Shown: piece by piece, positions 40,181 to 48,488 of the stretch | Layout of the letters: the number at the start of each line of letters is the position of its first letter | Position numbering within the stretch: the stretch's first letter is position 1 | Source: Actinotalea lenta | GTDB taxonomy: Bacteria > Actinomycetota > Actinomycetes > Actinomycetales > Cellulomonadaceae | Direction of reading: 5' to 3' | DNA: 64,000 bases | Assembly (NCBI RefSeq): GCF_030586465.1 | Contig: NZ_JAUQYP010000001.1 | Location: 124,001 to 188,000 of the forward strand | Notes under the pieces: model-generated | Database searches by the model: none | What the model saw: the letters and a program-made list of their open reading frames with translations, nothing else | What the model was told of the DNA's origin: nothing | Made by a program: the position numbers and the translations under genes

Positions 40181-40711
40181 TCAGGCCGCCGACTCCTCGG
40201 TGGCCCGCTTCTCGCGCAGGGCATCGATGGTGCGCACGGCCTGGGAGGTCGGCGCGGTGAACAGGTAGGCGGCCTGGTACAGCTTGGCCTTCATGGCGCC
40301 GGCCGCCTTGGCCAGCAGGACCTCGCGGGACTCGAGGTCCGCGAGCGTGGTGATCTCGTCCGCGGTCATCGGGCGGCCGTCCATGACGCCCCCCTTGACC
40401 ACGAGCTGAGGGTGGGCCTTGGCGAAGTCACGCAGCCCCTTCGCGACGGCGACCGCGTCACCGTCGACGAACGCGATCGCTGACGGCCCCTTGAGCTGGA
40501 CGTCGAGACCCTCGACGCCCGCCTCACGGGCCGCGATCGCGGACAGCGTGTTCTTCACCACGGCGTAGGTGGCGTTCCCGCGCAGCGCCGTGCGCAGCTC
40601 CTTGAGCTGGGACACGGTGAGCCCGCGGTACTCGGTCAGCACGACCGCGCTGGACTCGCGGAACCTGTCCGCGAGCTCGGCGACGGCGGCCGCCTTGTCC
40701 GGCCTCGCCAT
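40181..40711 (-). CDS. rplJ: 50S ribosomal protein L10
   Basis: Stalk base that binds L7/L12 dimers. The 176-residue product starts [40 protein letters not shown] and has [14 protein letters not shown] and the C-terminal L12-binding helix. The ATG at 40709-40711 has GGAGTG before it. In this genome rplJL is separated from rplKA by 7.8 kb, so it needs its own promoter. Confidence 0.97.
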
Positions 40712-40938: not shown

Positions 40939-41072
40939 CTCGCGGACCGCCGCCGGGCCCGCCAGCGCGACGCAGGCGGATCGTCGGTACACGTCACACG
41001 GGGGTCTCGGCTGACTCTAGGAGGGATGAAGGCCGCGTAGCGCCGCGGAAGACGACCACCGGGAGCCCCGTC

Positions 41073-41879
41073 ATGACCGCCCTGTCGCACCACCGCCCTG
41101 GCCCCACCGAGGAACGCCCCGGCGAGACGCCGGACACGGTGAGGGCCGGGCCGGTGGACCTGCGCGCCTGGCTCGGGGGGACGGGGCGCCCACAGCTCGA
41201 CGTCCCGCTGGCCCCGACGCCGCCACGCCTCGCCGGGGCTCGTACCCCGCGGGTGGCGCTCGTCGGTGGTGGGGTGGACCGGCAGCACCCGGACCTGGCC
41301 GGCGCGCACGTGGTGGTGTGGCCGGGCGGCCGCGGGCTCGCGCCGGACGTCACCGCGACGGCGTACGCGTCACTCCTGGTCGGCCAGGGTGTGGCGCACG
41401 CGCGTGGCCTGGTGCCCGACGCCGTGCTGCTGGTCGCAGCGGTGGAGCACCCGGACGAGCCGAGCACGGACGCGGCGACCGCCCGGGCCGTCCGATGGTG
41501 CGTCGGTGCGGGCGCCGAGGTGATCGTCCTGCCCTATGGGCGCAGGCGACTGGGCCGCCGCCTGACAGTCACGCTGCACGCGGCGATGGCGCACGGCACG
41601 CGGGTGTTTGCAGCGGCGGGCGACCTGGGCCCCGACATCCTGACGTTCCCCGGCTCCGTCACGGGCGTGGTCGCGGTGACCGCCCACGACGGTTCCCGGC
41701 TGCTCGCGGGGTGCTCCGCGTGCGCCGACATCGCCGCCCCCGGGGCCGACGTCCCGGCGGCCGGGCCCCGCTCCCGGACGAGGCTGCGTGGGTCGGGGGC
41801 GGCGACCGTGCTCGCCGCCGGGGCCCACCTCACGGCCGTCGCGGCCGAGCCCGACACCGCGCCCCTCCTGCTGCGTTGA
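41073..41879 (+). CDS. subtilase-fold pseudoprotease (S8-like, catalytically dead)
   Basis: A 268-residue cytosolic protein without signal peptide. From about residue 58 it follows the subtilisin (S8) pattern: VALVGGGVDRQHPDLAG, VTATAYASLLVGQGVAHARGLVPDAVLLVAAV, RVFAAAGDLGP, GVVAVTAHD, CADIAAPGADV and RGSGAATVLAAGAHLTAV. At the positions of the triad and oxyanion hole it has Gly65 for Asp, Thr94 for His, Asp184 for Asn and Gly242 for Ser. The reading frame is intact, so this looks like a retained pseudoenzyme rather than a decayed gene. It converges on the CHAT gene with 25 bp between stops. ATG at 41073 chosen; GGGAG lies upstream. Binding partner is unknown. Confidence 0.8.
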   Translation: MTALSHHRPGPTEERPGETPDTVRAGPVDLRAWLGGTGRPQLDVPLAPTPPRLAGARTPRVALVGGGVDRQHPDLAGAHVVVWPGGRGLAPDVTATAYASLLVGQGVAHARGLVPDAVLLVAAVEHPDEPSTDAATARAVRWCVGAGAEVIVLPYGRRRLGRRLTVTLHAAMAHGTRVFAAAGDLGPDILTFPGSVTGVVAVTAHDGSRLLAGCSACADIAAPGADVPAAGPRSRTRLRGSGAATVLAAGAHLTAVAAEPDTAPLLLR

Positions 41880-41904: not shown

Positions 41905-44454
41905 TCAGGGGCGCGTCGCGAAGCAGGCGAGAGGTACGGGGTCACCGGGGTCCACCGCCGCGAGCGCCTGCGACGCTGTCGCCCCGGTCCGCAGCGCCCG
42001 GTGGACGGTCGGCATGAGGTGCGCCGCGACGTCGTCCCGCAGCGGGGCCAACGCGGCAACCACGGCGTCGGCGCCGAGCCGCAGCAGGACGCTCGCCAGC
42101 CCGAGCACCTCGCCGCCAGGTCGCACCGTGGCTCGGCCCACCTCGCACGCGGACAGCACGACGACGGACCCGCACAGGTCGATCCCTTCGAGCTCGTGGG
42201 CGAACAGCGGTCCATCGACCAGCCGGAGCCAGGAGAACAGCGGGTTGTCGGGCTCGTGGCGGCCGTGGGCCGCCAGGTGCACGACACCGGCTCCGGCCAG
42301 CCCCGCCGCGGTCGCGCGCGCAGTGGCAGCGGTCCCGGTCAGGGCCTCGGTCCCCCAGATCCGGGCCACCGCCTCGACCTCCTGCGCCGCGTCCACCAGC
42401 CCCGGGCCTGCGACGACGAACGCTCCCGCGTGCCGCCGGGGCGGTGCCCCCACCCCGAGTCTGGTGCCCACGCTGGTGGGCAGCCCGCGACGCGACGGCA
42501 GCAGTCCCCACGGTAGGGTCACGAGCTCGCCGCCCACCGCGAGGTGCATGGGGCCGTCCACACCGAGCGGAGCCAGCAGGGTCGCGTCCGCCCAGGCGAG
42601 CCCGCGGTCCAGAGAGCCGCGGACCACCTGGCGCATCGGTACCGGCAGGTGGGCCGCCGAGAGCGCGTGCAGGTCCGCGCCGATCCGACGCGCGACGCGG
42701 CTCACCTCGTCGGCCTCAGCGAGATGGTGCAGGCGCGCACCGCTGGCGTCGACCACCACCGCGTGCACGGCACCGTCGAGCGTCACCACGTCCACCACAG
42801 CGCCCTCGGTGCCCGCACGCCCGGCGATCAGTGCCTCCGCGGTCGGCGCCTCGGGCGGACCGAGCTCGCCGTCCAGGTGCCACGACCGCTGGCGGGCGGC
42901 CGCGCGCAGGCGGACGATCTCGCGCTGCGTTGCGCGCTCGGCCGCGGCATCCGGCGGCAGGGCTCGTTCGCGCTCGACGGCGAACCGCAGCTCGGCGAGC
43001 AGGTCGGCGAGCACGGGATCCGCCGGGGGACGAACCCTCGCAGGGCCGGCGAAGGTCGCCCGCCCGCGCTCCGTCGCCTCGAGCACCGCGCGCGGGTCCT
43101 GGGCACGCAGCGCGGCCCTGAGCTCGACCGCGGCCAGGCGCTCACCGATCACCGCTGCTGCGGTCACCGCCTCGACCGAGCCGAACTGGCGTCGGTGCTC
43201 GGCGAGCAAGGCCTGCCCTGCCGCGACCTGTCGGCGGCCGGCCGCGGCGAGGCCCGAGTCGAAGTCGAGCTGGGCGGCGACCGCGCGCCATCCGAGCGCC
43301 AGGGTGAGGGGCTCGCGGCCGGTCAGGCGGCCGGCGGCCGCCAGAGCGTCACGCGCCTCGCGAGACCGACCCGCCGATGCCAGGGCGGCCGCCCGTACGA
43401 GCCGGGCCTGGCGGGCACTCGTGCGATCACCACCGGCCCGCTCGGTCCGGTCCGCGAGGTCAGCCGCGCGGCGCGCGAGGCGAAGGCGCACCCCGGGGCC
43501 GGCCCCGTCCCGCAGGGCGAGCTCGAGCCCGGCTCGCAGCTCCGCGAGCTCGGCCCGCGCCAGCCATGGCAGGTTCCCGCGCCGCGCCAGCCGCCGCCGG
43601 GCCTGCTGGGCCCAGCGGCGGCCCTCGTCCGGACGGCGCAGCAGCACCGCGCACGCCGAGCGCGAGATCTCCACCTGGGCCAGGTCCAGCGCCAGTCGCT
43701 GGTCGGCGAAGATGCGCCCCGCGCGCGCGAGCGTCTCGTCCGCCTCCGTCACGAGGCCGGCCTCGAGCAGCACCTGGGCGCGGTCCAGCAACGGGATGGC
43801 TTCCGACCCGCCCTCGCTGTCCTCGGCAGCGGCCGCCATCGTGGCCAGCGCGCGCGGAAGGTCCCCGGCCAGGAACTGCGCGTAACCCAGGTTGTGCCGC
43901 GCCTTGAACGCGAGGCGACCGTCACCGATGGTCTCGGCGCGCTCCGCGCACTGCACGAGGTCCGCCTGTGCCCGGCCGATCTCGCCCCGCTCGAGGAGGA
44001 GGGTGCTGCGGTTGAGGAGGATGCAGCACGCATCCACCGGATCGGCCAGGTCCAGCCGGGCCACCGCGGCGTCATGGTCGGCCAGAGACCTCCCTGCGTC
44101 CCCCGCACGCAGCCAGAGCAGGCCGCGCTGGCCGAGCACCGCCACCGCCGTGCCCGCGTCACGTGCGTCGGCGGCGTCACGTTCTGCCTCGTCGAGCATG
44201 GCCAGGGCCTCGTGGATGTCGGCACGCAGCTCGAAGTCGCTCATCACGAGCCCGAGGAGCGCCCGGGCCCGCACCCGTCGCGCCTGAGTCGACCGCTCAC
44301 CCGCAGTCGGGCCCCCGTCGCCCAGCGCCTCGAGGCGGCGCAGCGCCGCACGGAACCGCGCCGACGCAGCCGCCGGACGCCCGTCGGCGTTCGCGGCGAG
44401 ACCGGCGGCGAGTGCTCGCTGCGCCTCGGCCAGCGGGTCAGGTCCGGCGGCCAT
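41905..44454 (-). CDS. TPR-like/CHAT domain protease
   Basis: A 849-residue cytosolic protein. The N-terminal roughly 500 residues are Ala/Leu/Arg-rich helical repeats with TPR-like spacing (LGYAQFLAGDLPRALATM, NRSTLLLERGEIGRAQADLVQ). The C-terminal about 300 residues are a CHAT domain of the caspase/separase clan: VVHLAAHGRHEPDNPL carries the catalytic His (about 730), and VVVLSACEVGRATV the catalytic Cys (about 770). Known TPR-CHAT proteases cleave specific partners on a signal; target and trigger here are not known. The ATG at 44452-44454 shares a base with the S8 gene stop (TGATG); an ATG 42 nt upstream is an alternative. Confidence 0.88.
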   Translation of the reverse strand: MAAGPDPLAEAQRALAAGLAANADGRPAAASARFRAALRRLEALGDGGPTAGERSTQARRVRARALLGLVMSDFELRADIHEALAMLDEAERDAADARDAGTAVAVLGQRGLLWLRAGDAGRSLADHDAAVARLDLADPVDACCILLNRSTLLLERGEIGRAQADLVQCAERAETIGDGRLAFKARHNLGYAQFLAGDLPRALATMAAAAEDSEGGSEAIPLLDRAQVLLEAGLVTEADETLARAGRIFADQRLALDLAQVEISRSACAVLLRRPDEGRRWAQQARRRLARRGNLPWLARAELAELRAGLELALRDGAGPGVRLRLARRAADLADRTERAGGDRTSARQARLVRAAALASAGRSREARDALAAAGRLTGREPLTLALGWRAVAAQLDFDSGLAAAGRRQVAAGQALLAEHRRQFGSVEAVTAAAVIGERLAAVELRAALRAQDPRAVLEATERGRATFAGPARVRPPADPVLADLLAELRFAVERERALPPDAAAERATQREIVRLRAAARQRSWHLDGELGPPEAPTAEALIAGRAGTEGAVVDVVTLDGAVHAVVVDASGARLHHLAEADEVSRVARRIGADLHALSAAHLPVPMRQVVRGSLDRGLAWADATLLAPLGVDGPMHLAVGGELVTLPWGLLPSRRGLPTSVGTRLGVGAPPRRHAGAFVVAGPGLVDAAQEVEAVARIWGTEALTGTAATARATAAGLAGAGVVHLAAHGRHEPDNPLFSWLRLVDGPLFAHELEGIDLCGSVVVLSACEVGRATVRPGGEVLGLASVLLRLGADAVVAALAPLRDDVAAHLMPTVHRALRTGATASQALAAVDPGDPVPLACFATRP

Positions 44455-46142
44455 CAGTGCGGGGTGAGCCCCGTGGTCTCGGTGATCGCCCGCCATGCTG
44501 CCGCGCAGCGCCGCTCGGTCGACTCCCCCCAGGCCGCGGGCTCGGCCGGTGACTGCTCCTCGCGCTCGCGCAGCAACGCCTCGGCGAGGTCGCCGCCCAG
44601 CACCGGCGCGCTGAACGAGGTCCCGCTCCAGATCCCGAAACCGCCGGCGAACGAGTCCGGGTCGACGGTCCGCCGGATCTCACCGCGGTGGCCGCCCGCC
44701 AGGTCCCGGGTCGCGCTGAGCGCGCCGGTGAGCTCGACCGGCATGGTGCTCACCACATCGGCGCCAGGCCGGACGCACGTGACCCATGGACCGTCGTTGC
44801 TGAACAGCGCCGTGCTGCCGTCCGGGTTCTGGGCGCCCACCGCGAGCAGGGGCGGCACGGTCGGGTCGAGCGGCGCGGCCGGGGTCGGCGGGTGCCAGTG
44901 CGCCAGCCGCGGGGCGAAGGCTGCGGGGTGCATCGGCCGGGTTGTGCCGTCGTTGCCTGCCGAGGCGACGATCGCGACCCCGGCCCTGGCCAGACCGAGC
45001 AGCACCCTGCCGAGTGGACCGTCGAAGTCCACGTCCTCCGGCCGCTCGTGGTAGTACCCGAACGAGAGCACGAGCACGTCGATCGGCAGGTAGCCCTTGC
45101 GGCCGCTGACCCCGAGCAGGTGGTACGTGAGCAGCCGGCGCAGGCTGCGCATCAGGTCGTGCTCCTCGATGGCACCCGAGCCGCCGTACAGCGCCGCGGA
45201 GACGATCACCGCGTCGGGGCAGCGCTGGTGCACGAGCCCGCTGATGAACGTGCCGTGCCCGGTGGCGGCGTCCAGGGGTCCCGTGAGCGGGGCCACGGTC
45301 ATCCCGCGTCCCTCGGTCGCGCCGGGCGTCCCCACCGGCACGCCGAGCACCTGCGGGTCGCGCACCACGACGGAGTCGGGGAACCACGGGTGCGTGCGGG
45401 TCCCGGTGTCCAGCAGCGCGACCACCGGCCGCGTCGTCCCGTCGGCGGACCGCAGGACGTCCGCACCGTCCGCGTGCCGCCGGTGAGGACGCGGACCGAC
45501 CCAGGCTGTGGGCGTGCGCCCACCCGAGCCCGGCACGGCGTACTCGGTCAGACCCGCGTACGGCAGCGGCTGGGTGAACGGCAGCGGCTGGGTGAACGGC
45601 AGCGGCTGGGTGAACGGCAGCGGCTGGGTGAACGGCAGCGGCTGGGTGAACGGCAGCGGCTGGGTGAAGGGGTTCCCGCCGATCCCGACGGTGGCGGCCA
45701 GGACGTGGTCGAGGGCCGCGACCGCCGGCGCCCCCGTCTTGTCCACCAGGTCCTCCAGCAGCGGCCACGCGTCCACCGGGTGCCGGACCTCACCGGGCTC
45801 CGCGCTGATCCGCACGCCGAACCCGGCATGCTCCAGGACGAACGCGTAGGCGTCGTCCGGCAGGTCCGCCCGGCCGAGGACCTCGAGCTCGCGCACGTCC
45901 CTCGGATCGACGCTGACCACCCAGCCGCGCTCCCGGGCGAGCTCGGCGAGCGTGGCGAGCTCGCTGCCACGCAGCTCCGGCGTGCCGGCCAGGAGCACGG
46001 TGTCCTCGAAGTACGACGTCGTCATCGGCCGCGCCGAGTCCGCGCGGCGAACCGCGGTTGCCGGGTCGAGCATGCGGACCCGACCTGCGAGCGGATCGTG
46101 CGGGTCGGGCTCCGCCGACCCCGGGACCTTCGGTGCGACCAT
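44454..46142 (-). CDS. intracellular S8 subtilisin-like protease with FTQPLP repeats
   Basis: A 562-residue serine protease with the triad Asp245 (VALLDTGTRTHP), His296 (GHGTFISGLV), Ser509 (SGTSFSAPVLGG) and oxyanion Asn397 (SAGNDG). No signal peptide is present, unlike most subtilases. Residues about 40-155 form an N-terminal domain I do not recognise, and 159-194 are six exact FTQPLP units that act as a Pro-rich linker. The ATG at 46140-46142 has GGGGAGGAG at good spacing. It is 34 bp after the 160-residue protein gene and coupled to the CHAT gene. Self-cleavage or cleavage of a partner is possible but not shown. Confidence 0.9.
   Translation of the reverse strand: MVAPKVPGSAEPDPHDPLAGRVRMLDPATAVRRADSARPMTTSYFEDTVLLAGTPELRGSELATLAELARERGWVVSVDPRDVRELEVLGRADLPDDAYAFVLEHAGFGVRISAEPGEVRHPVDAWPLLEDLVDKTGAPAVAALDHVLAATVGIGGNPFTQPLPFTQPLPFTQPLPFTQPLPFTQPLPFTQPLPYAGLTEYAVPGSGGRTPTAWVGPRPHRRHADGADVLRSADGTTRPVVALLDTGTRTHPWFPDSVVVRDPQVLGVPVGTPGATEGRGMTVAPLTGPLDAATGHGTFISGLVHQRCPDAVIVSAALYGGSGAIEEHDLMRSLRRLLTYHLLGVSGRKGYLPIDVLVLSFGYYHERPEDVDFDGPLGRVLLGLARAGVAIVASAGNDGTTRPMHPAAFAPRLAHWHPPTPAAPLDPTVPPLLAVGAQNPDGSTALFSNDGPWVTCVRPGADVVSTMPVELTGALSATRDLAGGHRGEIRRTVDPDSFAGGFGIWSGTSFSAPVLGGDLAEALLREREEQSPAEPAAWGESTERRCAAAWRAITETTGLTPH
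45562..45669 (-). repeat. six tandem 18-bp units in the S8 protease gene
   Basis: Plus-strand unit GGCAGCGGCTGGGTGAAC repeats six times with only the last base of the final copy changed. It stays in frame and encodes the FTQPLP series. Near-identity at the DNA level suggests recent expansion and possible length variation by slippage. Confidence 0.97.
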
Positions 46143-46176: not shown

Positions 46177-46659
46177 CTACAGCTCGATCACCGGCGTGCT
46201 GACGGCCGGCCCCGTGCCGTCGGACCGGCGCAGCACCAGGCTGGCCGGGCCCGTCGGCACGTCCTCCAGGACGAAGCACCCCTCGTCGTCCGACTCGGTC
46301 CGGATCTCGCCGTCCGGGCGGAACAGTGCGACGTCGCACCGCACAGCCGGTGCGATCCATCCGTCGACCCGGATCCCGCCCGCACCGGGCGACAGGGTGA
46401 TCATGACCGTGCACGGGTCCGCCGTGAAGGTCACGGTCCGCGCCGTGACGGTCTCCTCGCCGCGCAGCGCCGGTTCGGGGGTCTGCAACCGGACCAGTTC
46501 GACCAGCTCCGACTCCAGCCCGTCGAGCGTGATCGCGAACAGTGCACGGTCCGCCAGACCGTCCGGCACGGGGTCCACCGTGCGCACGACCCGGCCCAGC
46601 CGCGCCAGCAGGGTCCGGTCGCGGGCGTCCATCGGCTCGTCCGGCGAGTACTCCGTCAT
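46177..46659 (-). CDS. sigma-coupled beta-rich protein of unknown function
   Basis: A 160-residue soluble protein. Residues 12-60 are predicted helical (RDRTLLARLGRVVRTVDPVPDGLADRALFAITLDGLESELVELV); residues 72-160 are beta-strand rich with VTFTADPCTVMITL, GWIAPAVRCDVALFRPDG, and DDEGCFVLEDVPTGPASLVLRR, a pattern like carboxypeptidase-regulatory/Ig-like folds. I do not recognise a named family. The ATG overlaps the sigma stop as ATGA, so production is coupled to the sigma factor; it could modulate that factor, but it has no membrane segment and no classic anti-sigma zinc motif (HxxxCxxC). Confidence 0.75.
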   Translation of the reverse strand: MTEYSPDEPMDARDRTLLARLGRVVRTVDPVPDGLADRALFAITLDGLESELVELVRLQTPEPALRGEETVTARTVTFTADPCTVMITLSPGAGGIRVDGWIAPAVRCDVALFRPDGEIRTESDDEGCFVLEDVPTGPASLVLRRSDGTGPAVSTPVIEL

Positions 46660-47276
46660 GACCATTCCCATCTGTCGTCCTGGTCGAGCAGCGCCCGCAG
46701 CTTGGCCAGGCATCGTCCGCGCGTCACGCCGACGGCGGTCACCTTCATCCCGGTCACCTCCGCGATCGCGCGGTAGTCGGGCCGGTCGGCAGCCGCGACG
46801 CACCGCAGGATCTGCCGACACCGTTCTGGCAGCCTGGCGAACACCCGCCACAGGGTGCGGTCGCGCTCGGTCTCCAGCAGGTGTCGCTCCGGACCGACGC
46901 CGGCGTCGGGCACCTCGCCCGCCTCGTCGATGTCGTCCGGCAAGGGCCGCGCCCGCGCCGCGGCGGCTCGGGTGCCGCGCACCGCGGACCACGCTGCTCG
47001 ACGGGCGCTGACCAGCAGCCAGGCCAGCGCGGCCTGCGGTTCGCGGATCGTCTCGGCGTGCCGGACGAACGAGACCCAGACGCCCTGGACCACGTCCTCG
47101 GCCTGCTCACGGGCCACGCCCTGCCCCCGCACCACGTGCCAGAGCAGAGGGGTGGCATCTCGGACGAAGGCCTCGAAGGCTCCGGTTCGCCCCTCGCGGT
47201 ACTCCACCAGCGCACGCGCGCCGCGCTCGCCGAGCGTCATTGCGTGCGCCTGATCTGTCACCGTCGGGTGCTCCAT
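46656..47276 (-). CDS. ECF-type RNA polymerase sigma factor
   Basis: A 206-residue sigma-70 family protein. Region 2 spans about 36-100 (FEAFVRDATPLLWHVVRGQGV, EDVVQGVWVSFVRH), and region 4 about 145-197 (LPERCRQILRCVAA, DYRAIAEVTGMKVTAVGVTRGRCLAKLR) with a helix-turn-helix. Region 3 is missing, as in ECF sigmas. ATG start, no strong ribosome binding site. It heads a four-gene operon (sigma, 160-residue protein, S8 protease, CHAT protein). Its promoter target is unknown; a dyad GCGTG-ACG-CACGC lies upstream near 47322-47334. Confidence 0.9.
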   Translation of the reverse strand: MEHPTVTDQAHAMTLGERGARALVEYREGRTGAFEAFVRDATPLLWHVVRGQGVAREQAEDVVQGVWVSFVRHAETIREPQAALAWLLVSARRAAWSAVRGTRAAAARARPLPDDIDEAGEVPDAGVGPERHLLETERDRTLWRVFARLPERCRQILRCVAAADRPDYRAIAEVTGMKVTAVGVTRGRCLAKLRALLDQDDRWEWS

Positions 47277-47469
47277 GGGGGCAAGCCGTCCTGTCGACCT
47301 CGGGGTGCGAGACTACGGGGAGCGTGACGCACGCCACAAGGCGCAGGGCGCACCGCTCCTACCCATGACGGAGGACGGGACCGAGCGCCGGTGACACCCA
47401 CGCTGCGAGGTGACATGTGATCTCGGTCACGCACGCTCGCCTGACCCTCGACCGGACCAAGGAGAGCCT

Positions 47470-48411
47470 GTGCCCCATCCCCTGGACACCGCCGGAGCCG
47501 TGGAGCTCGCCGTCGTGGACCGCGACGGGCTGCCCGAGTCCCGCCACCTGGGTGCTGCCGCGCTGGTCGACGCCGACGGCCGGCTGATCGAGTCGCACGG
47601 AGACATGGCCGCCGCCGTCTACCCGAGATCGGCCCTCAAGCCATTCCAGGCTGAGGTCTCCCTGGCGGCCGGCGCACCGCTGGAGCCGGTGCAGCGCGTG
47701 CTCGCCTGCGCCAGCCACGCGGGCACAGACGAGCACGTCGCGGTGGTCTCGCACGTGCTGCGCGACGCCGGGCTGGACGAGGGTGCGCTGGGCTGCCCCG
47801 TAGCCGCCCCGCTCGACCCCACCACGGCCGCGCGGGTCGAGACGAGCCGGCTCCGTATGAACTGCTCCGGCAAGCACGCTGCGTTCCTCTCGGCCTGCGT
47901 CACCGCGGGCTGGGACACCGCGACCTACCTCGAACCGTCCCACCCGCTGCAGCGGGCCGTGCTCGCGAGCGTGCAGGACCGGTGCGGTGAGCACGTCGCG
48001 CACACCGGCACCGACGGGTGCGGGGCCCCGGCCCACGCGCTCACCCTGCCAGCCCTGGCGCGCGGCGCCTCCCGACTGCTCGGGCCGGGCAGCGCCCTGG
48101 CGGACGACGTCCGCGCGCACCCGTGGGCCCTGGACGGCCCGGGTCGGGCGAACACCCGAACGGTGGAGGCCACAGGGGCGGTGGCCAAGGTGGGCGCCGA
48201 GGGGTACCTGCTCGTGGTCGCCCCCGGCGGCGCCGCGGTCAGCCTCAAGGTGCTGGACGGTTCGCAGCGCGTGACGACGTTCGTCGCGCTGTCCCTGCTG
48301 GCGCGCGCCGGGGCGCTGGACCCCGACGTGGTGGCGCCGCTGCTCGCCGAGCTCACGCCCCCGCCCACGGGTGGCGGGCACGTCGTCGGCAGCTGGCGGC
48401 TGAGCGTGTAG
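47470..48411 (+). CDS. L-asparaginase II family protein
   Basis: A 313-residue protein of the thermolabile asparaginase family first described in Rhizobium, unrelated to the E. coli type. Conserved elements are YPRSALKPFQAE, CASHAGTDEHVAVV, MNCSGKHAAFLSAC, GTDGCGAPAHALTL and GRANTRTVE. It would hydrolyse asparagine to aspartate and ammonia in the cytosol. GTG at 47470-47472 has AAGGAG at good spacing. It faces away from the sigma operon and converges with rplA. Confidence 0.9.
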   Translation: MPHPLDTAGAVELAVVDRDGLPESRHLGAAALVDADGRLIESHGDMAAAVYPRSALKPFQAEVSLAAGAPLEPVQRVLACASHAGTDEHVAVVSHVLRDAGLDEGALGCPVAAPLDPTTAARVETSRLRMNCSGKHAAFLSACVTAGWDTATYLEPSHPLQRAVLASVQDRCGEHVAHTGTDGCGAPAHALTLPALARGASRLLGPGSALADDVRAHPWALDGPGRANTRTVEATGAVAKVGAEGYLLVVAPGGAAVSLKVLDGSQRVTTFVALSLLARAGALDPDVVAPLLAELTPPPTGGGHVVGSWRLSV

Positions 48412-48415
48412 CACA

Positions 48416-48445
48416 GCGGCCCGGCCCCCGAGGGGACCGGGCCGC
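48416..48445. terminator. bidirectional terminator between asparaginase gene and rplA
   Basis: Inverted repeat 48416-48429 with 48432-48445 (outer arm GCGGCCCGG, one C/A mismatch). It lies 5 bp past the asparaginase stop and 44 bp past the rplA stop. Confidence 0.75.
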
Positions 48446-48488
48446 AGTCACGTGCGGTGCGCCGGCTCGCGGCGTGGAGACTCGACCG

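Follow-up and report, generated by a model that had tools for sequence, protein, structure and literature searches.

A predicted subtilisin-like pseudoprotease beside a sigma factor/S8/CHAT operon of Actinotalea

Why should a protein with the fold of a subtilase and none of its catalytic residues be kept beside genes for proteases whose catalytic residues are intact? This question is raised by a gene of Actinotalea lenta that lies in a stretch of 64,000 nucleotides, which was analysed as a whole and is referred to below as the window. The initial annotation considered the gene to encode a subtilase-fold protein that may bind the neighbouring S8 or CHAT enzyme, and it added that the convergent position of the gene may limit both transcripts.

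41073..41879, + strand: pseudo-subtilase gene, 268 aa; open frame, Pfam S8 match at 2e-7, nine orthologues in the genus, AlphaFold2 model matching subtilases

We give an even chance to the explanation that this gene is a lineage-specific pseudo-subtilase in the regulon of the adjacent sigma/CarboxypepD-like/S8/CHAT operon, and that its product would serve as a non-catalytic, co-induced regulatory partner of the module's proteases. The parts of this explanation that can be read directly from the sequences are the subtilase fold, the loss of the triad in 9/9 orthologues, the purifying selection, the fixed synteny and the shared promoter motif.

The frame is intact, as had been claimed, and comprises 268 codons and a stop codon. 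The PF00082 Peptidase_S8 profile matches the protein at 2e-7 with 31.1 bits (cut-off 21.8), which places it in family S8. Among the sequences of solved structures, thermitase was matched by phmmer at 7.6e-9, and the PatA profile matched at 1e-5; the NCBIfam model of the cyanobactin PatA/PatG protease (TIGR03895) gave 24.5 bits against a cut-off of 421, far below what membership in that family requires. AlphaFold2, supplied with the nine orthologues, produced five models, a single one of which was good (pLDDT 80.8, pTM 0.82; the remaining four reached 61.5-66.4). A Foldseek search with this model returned PagA/PatA at 1e-14 to 1e-11, and VIA-align superposed it on PatA S218A with a Z score of 23.9 and 3.0 A over 215 residues; PagA/PatA and the subtilisins are the closest solved structures. 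The predicted fold is therefore that of a subtilisin, in agreement with the initial annotation. Residues 1-50 form one short helix (H30-36) and are mostly of low confidence, and no extra domain was modelled; with 268 aa in total, the protein does not have the prodomain and jelly-roll domain that characterize the Csp family. PatA/PagA cyanobactin and thermitase-type S8 proteases, the closest in fold and sequence, are active proteases, whereas the pseudo-subtilase has lost its triad and is surrounded by the sigma/S8/CHAT operon and ribosomal genes, with no RiPP cluster. The PADLOC anti-phage defence models gave no match to the protein at E 0.01, no plasmid match was found, and Rfam returned no family at the locus apart from one chance-level match at 48411-48455.

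According to the alignment with thermitase and the alignment of the orthologues, G65, T94, D184 and G242 were correctly assigned to the Asp, His, Asn and Ser positions. The residues found at these positions in the nine orthologous loci (L001-L009) are listed in order.

41265..41267, + strand: codon 65, Gly at the catalytic Asp; L001-L009: G G D G D D H D A
41352..41354, + strand: codon 94, Thr at the catalytic His; L001-L009: T R H Q Q L L R G
41622..41624, + strand: codon 184, Asp at the oxyanion Asn; L001-L009: D D N D D D D D T
41796..41798, + strand: codon 242, Gly at the catalytic Ser; L001-L009: G A G G A S A S A

The window protein retains none of the four residues (the Asp/His/Ser triad and the oxyanion Asn) and does not qualify as an active S8 peptidase. 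In the orthologue alignment the full Asp/His/Ser triad occurs in 0/9 sequences; an orthologue with intact catalytic residues, which would have spoken against the pseudoprotease reading, was thus not found among the nine. The expected conservation of the replacements holds for the loss of the complete triad, which is common to 9/9 orthologues, and not for the four individual substitutions, which vary among them. Asp, His and Asn are kept in L003, which has Gly for Ser, and Asp and Ser are kept in L006 and L008. These sequences might be taken as a sign of residual or unusual catalytic activity in some orthologues; however, Asp, His and Ser occur together in no orthologue and the window protein lacks all four residues, and we consider such activity very improbable. 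The mosaic of retained residues looks, from the sequences, like a series of independent losses. With Asp as the ancestral residue, the protein tree requires five or more losses of it, a parsimony count made by hand on a tree with several weakly supported nodes (0.34-0.76); for the oxyanion position, an ancestral N184D with one reversal in L003 could be the alternative. The His column is the tenth most variable of the 192 columns of the nine-orthologue alignment, and the motifs HPDL, LVGQG, GLVP, FP..V, APG, VP.AG and VLAA are invariant or nearly so.

In active subtilases, the SLGG strand and loop bind the substrate. The thermitase and orthologue alignments place a different segment at this position.

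41526..41561, + strand: VLPYGRRRLGRR, residues 152-163, in place of the substrate-binding 'SLGG' strand and loop

The strand and loop of the pseudo-subtilase read LPFGRRRLGRR, and P154, R157, R159 and R162 are invariant in 9/9 orthologues. Because of the invariant proline and three arginines at the SLGG position, we infer that the cleft may have been rebuilt for binding. What such a cleft would bind is a separate matter. The protein might sense a ligand or peptide and pass the signal to the module, its dead cleft holding a peptide or an anionic signal by means of the proline and the three arginines. This suggestion agrees with the conservation of VLPFGRRRLGRR at the SLGG substrate position of active subtilases while the catalytic columns vary freely, and CspC and CspA are reported to act as signal receptors. 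However, a sensor that is made after activation of the sigma factor would need to act by feedback, and the arginine cluster fits protein binding equally well. We therefore consider a sensor unlikely, and return to the regulatory partner of the proteases as the preferred explanation.

Is the gene maintained, and how far does it extend? Orthologues are present in nine of the 19 Actinotalea genomes and share 50-62% identity with the window protein when all nine are aligned. dN is lower than dS in 36/36 orthologue pairs (NG86), the ratios being rough because dS is near saturation, and the codons are thus under purifying selection. The pairwise identity among the nine (46-69%) is similar to that of S8 and CHAT. 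Therefore, the gene is not evolving like a dying gene, and the nine orthologues are under purifying selection without the triad, as befits a pseudoprotease. A pseudogene is ruled out by the frame, which is intact in 9/9, and by dN<dS. A recent duplicate of the operon S8 is also ruled out, because BLASTP gave an E value of 0.17, that is, no detectable similarity. Furthermore, the gene does not appear to represent a widespread family, as no orthologue was found outside Actinotalea in 221 genomes of the family and 396 genomes sampled across the order. With a profile of the nine, the family genomes gave the orthologues of the genus at E 1.6e-105 or better, followed by a 1455-aa frame at 6e-26, and the order genomes gave only a larger S8 protein with an intact-looking triad at 5e-23; these searches scored 6-11 candidates per genome among the matches listed, and diverged members could be missed. 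The tenth match in the genus, in G010, is a different S8 in a 1091-aa frame in which the motifs are present. For eight of ten non-orthologous S8 loci, the motif script returned a GTS-type active-site motif; outside those eight, L103 was read by eye and L018 was left out. In open-licence PMC papers, no mention was found of the gene, of a pseudo-subtilase in a CHAT/ECF54 locus or of an Actinotalea pseudoprotease.

The neighbouring genes are the following.

46656..47276, - strand: ECF-like sigma factor gene (sigma70-ECF superfamily, 1e-17)
46177..46665, - strand: 162-aa protein with a pair of helices at the N terminus, a beta domain and a weak match to CarboxypepD_reg (0.098)
44454..46142, - strand: S8 peptidase; triad intact (D245, H296, N397, S509), linker made of PFTQPLP-type repeats
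41905..44496, - strand: CHAT-domain protein that has the catalytic H744 and C784; its gene and that of the pseudo-subtilase are convergent
40181..40711, - strand: rplJ (L10), the divergent neighbour of the pseudo-subtilase, followed by rplL and rpoB

The D/H/N/S residues of the operon S8 are kept in 17/17 copies examined (L033 and L038 being outside the set), and the His and Cys of CHAT in 19/19 resolved copies. Judged from these residues, catalysis is dispensable in the pseudo-subtilase, and only there among the protease-type proteins of the module. The 162-aa protein, which was modelled with a pLDDT of 77.9 and a pTM of 0.55 and returned nothing in Foldseek at E 0.001 or better, might be an anti-sigma factor. 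The CHAT protein matches BovA of PADLOC weakly (3.8e-4). ECF54 loci contain sigma factor, carboxypeptidase-like, subtilase and CHAT genes, and proteolytic control of the sigma factor has been proposed for them (PMC8999054). The present operon resembles these loci by gene content, its sigma gene being accompanied by genes for a carboxypeptidase-like protein, a subtilase and a CHAT protein, of which the carboxypeptidase-like match is weak (0.098). In the parts of the description available, no additional dead subtilase is named (PMC8999054); among the loci compared here, only those of Actinotalea have the convergent gene in addition.

The pseudo-subtilase lies beside the sigma–CarboxypepD-like–S8–CHAT operon, and between CHAT and rplJ-rplL-rpoB, in 9/9 carriers; in G008 and G015 contig ends cut off part of the operon. 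The orthologous CHAT occurs in the same nine Actinotalea genomes and no others, and the orthologous S8 is present in these nine as well. The orthologues of all three genes are either all present or all absent in 18 of the 19 genomes of the genus. The nineteenth, G010, has a divergent S8 and, elsewhere in the genome, a divergent CHAT (37%), and no orthologue of the pseudo-subtilase; nine genomes of the genus have no CHAT. All nine genomes without the operon also lack the pseudo-subtilase, including G007, in a single contig. Thus the pseudoprotease reading of the initial annotation stands in the sense of a maintained protein with the subtilisin fold and with a genetic link to the S8/CHAT operon.

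In other genera the operon occurs at the same rplJ site without the pseudo-subtilase (G019, G028, G025, G024, G031, G027 and G020). Since these relatives of the module, G019 and those of six other genera of Cellulomonadaceae, do without the gene, it is not essential to the module. In the CHAT-rplJ gap of G027, a gene that by eye is of the MFS transporter type is present (L036, 10931-12286). An MFS gene where Actinotalea has the pseudo-subtilase means that this gap accepts insertions, and it might be argued on this basis that the pseudo-subtilase is a bystander, kept by its linkage to the rplJ locus and with a function unrelated to proteases. Nevertheless, the gene is absent from every operon-less genome of the genus and shares a promoter motif with the sigma gene, and we regard a bystander as quite improbable.

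The history of the operon in G019 is a side issue. In the operon tree, G019 (L030, L078), which has no pseudo-subtilase, is placed beside G014 inside the Actinotalea clade with a support of 1.00, whereas rpoB places it outside this clade. Gene loss, operon transfer and an artefact of missing data in the tree are possible explanations.

The argument for a co-induced partner depends on the promoters of the two transcription units.

40993..41020, + strand: ECF-type promoter-like motif GTCACA-N16-CTCTAG, located 80 bp before the pseudo-subtilase start codon; the weakest of the nine
47368..47395, - strand: motif of the same kind, GTCACC-N16-CTCCGT, in front of the sigma gene

Upstream of the sigma gene, the motif reads GTCACA-N16-CTCCTG in the genus and G019 and GTATCA-N16-CTCT in the six other genera of the family. 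A GTCACA-N16/17-CTCY motif in the right orientation precedes the pseudo-subtilase gene in 9/9 genomes. Although the motif was first spotted by eye and the statistics are post hoc, the weight matrix was then built from eight sigma-gene sites alone. When the 250 bp upstream of the pseudo-subtilase gene were scored with this matrix, the best site fell between -59 and -106 in 9/9. Seven of the nine sites score above all 127,944 positions of the window; the score of the L006 site is reached by 3 positions and that of the window's own site by 32. Of 400 dinucleotide shuffles, 27 reached the score of the window's own site, one each those of L002 and L006, and none those of the other six. The opposite strand scored 1.4-6.8, compared with 8.6-23.3 for the pseudo-subtilase sites, and in 7/7 related loci without the pseudo-subtilase no motif site lies between CHAT and rplJ. 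These sites indicate that the pseudo-subtilase probably belongs to the regulon of the sigma factor; for the genome of the window, whose own site is weak, orthology is the basis of this assignment.

The motif is not confined to the locus. A looser pattern has 43 matches in the genome of the window, compared with 18 for the reversed control. The exact GTCACA-N16/17-CTCCTG has 21 matches in 19 genomes; eight are at the locus (three sigma, five pseudo-subtilase) and 13, across 10 genomes, are away from it, compared with two for the reversed control. Therefore, the motif has other users and is not unique to this regulon. Two of the 13 off-locus sites lie 103-106 bp upstream of an M66-like metallopeptidase gene (HEAGH) that is present in only two of the 19 genomes of the genus (L083, 1501-3028, in G011; L095, 1501-3028, in G008), and the sigma regulon possibly includes this metallopeptidase as a third protease. 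In addition, a second conserved promoter-like element, TTGTGG followed after about 17 bp by a TACGCT-like sequence, lies between the ECF-type motif and the sigma gene, downstream of the motif, in L022, L025, L026, L028 and L030, and suggests dual promoters for the sigma operon.

The proposal that the convergent position limits both transcripts is unsupported. The motif predicts that the two genes are switched on jointly, and they overlap tail to tail in only 5/9 genomes (by 72-204 bp). In the other four the stop codons are separated by 15-37 bp; the distance in the window is 25 bp, and no consensus terminator was found there between the convergent stops. Interference at the 3′ ends of the co-induced convergent genes could nevertheless occur.

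According to the preferred explanation, that of a co-induced regulatory partner, the released sigma factor would transcribe the operon that encodes it and also, from the opposite side, the pseudo-subtilase gene. The pseudo-subtilase would bind a protease of the module or a protease substrate by way of the remodelled cleft, in which the proline and the three arginines are invariant, and would restrain or retarget proteolysis as a feedback once the response is on. As for the protease, we lean weakly to CHAT over S8. Across nine taxa, the distance matrix of the pseudo-subtilase correlates with that of CHAT at r 0.81 (partial r 0.63 after rpoB) and with that of S8 at r 0.35 (partial r 0.04), figures that derive from only nine taxa and from fragmentary S8 alignments; the lean is weak because CHAT is the adjacent gene and adjacency confounds the comparison. 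An alternative is that the protein is a heterodimer partner, stabiliser or decoy of the active S8 of the operon, in the way that intracellular subtilisins and Csp proteins dimerise with relatives. The fold it shares with the S8 catalytic domain, the intracellular-subtilisin structures 7y6m and 2xrm among its close folds, and the precedent of the CspC:CspA complex are consistent with this proposal, but the sequence similarity to the operon S8 is not detectable and the distances do not track S8 beyond rpoB. We consider an S8 partner somewhat unlikely. We also hold, tentatively and with more doubt than confidence, a broader version of the preferred explanation, in which, within one genus, a subtilisin lost catalysis separately in several lineages at least and was kept as a sigma-regulated, non-catalytic controller of the CHAT/subtilisin module, the cleft being rebuilt around the invariant proline and three arginines so that it accommodates a protease, the tail of a substrate or an anionic signal. 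It would then be a pseudoprotease feedback device outside spore germination.

CspC and CspA of Clostridioides difficile are the nearest functional analogues, with a subtilisin fold and a lost triad as in the pseudo-subtilase. CspC is a subtilisin-like pseudoprotease of solved structure with Thr for His and Gly for Ser, the same replacements as in the window protein (PMC6636752), although it retains the Asp that the window protein has lost. It works as a CspC:CspA complex, a heterodimer that integrates signals (PMC12880746). The dead Csp paralogues act beside the active CspB in a regulated proteolytic pathway, a setting like the present one; they differ in having a prodomain and a jelly-roll domain and in belonging to spores, whereas the pseudo-subtilase is a bare domain of ~210 residues in an actinobacterial sigma/S8/CHAT module. 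Craspase/CASP is a further likeness, as its CHAT protease, the CRISPR-linked Csx29, acts on the inhibitor of a sigma factor (PMC10028731), and the TPR-CHAT protein Csx29, together with Csx30, is coupled to a sigma factor with a motif in its own locus (PMC10028731). However, no CRISPR effector is among the genes here, and Craspase/CASP is described, in what is available of the account, without a pseudo-subtilase.

Subtilisin-like pseudoproteases as such are known, and it is the setting of this one that is new, with the fixed adjacency to the operon in nine carriers and the motif common to the sigma and pseudo-subtilase promoters. Subtilisin-like pseudoproteases with an assigned role are few, and the bacterial examples in the open-licence PMC texts available are the Csp proteins of C. 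difficile and relatives. Nine orthologues that lost different residues, beside active S8 and CHAT proteins and apparently under one sigma factor, constitute a natural experiment on a protease fold after catalysis, and the gene offers a handle on ECF54-type modules, since it can be deleted or used as bait with the enzymes untouched. In this soil bacterium and its near relatives, a dead subtilisin is kept beside a predicted stress-signalling set of sigma factor, subtilisin and caspase-like protease, apparently induced by the same sigma factor, and it probably steers or restrains proteases instead of cutting.

Two minor observations concern the operon. Tandem CHAT genes occur within one operon in L034 (8606-13882, G024) and L037 (8708-14058, G020), with His and Cys in all four. 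The six-residue repeat linker of the operon S8 (about 45558-45680, - strand) is near-perfect and is also present in the S8 genes of L020-L038. Its unit is uniform within a species and varies between species (PFTQPL, PYTEPH, PYTQPH, PFTDPH, PYTDPH and PYTESH; NPFHST in G010 and GYGDGV in G052), a pattern that looks like concerted evolution.
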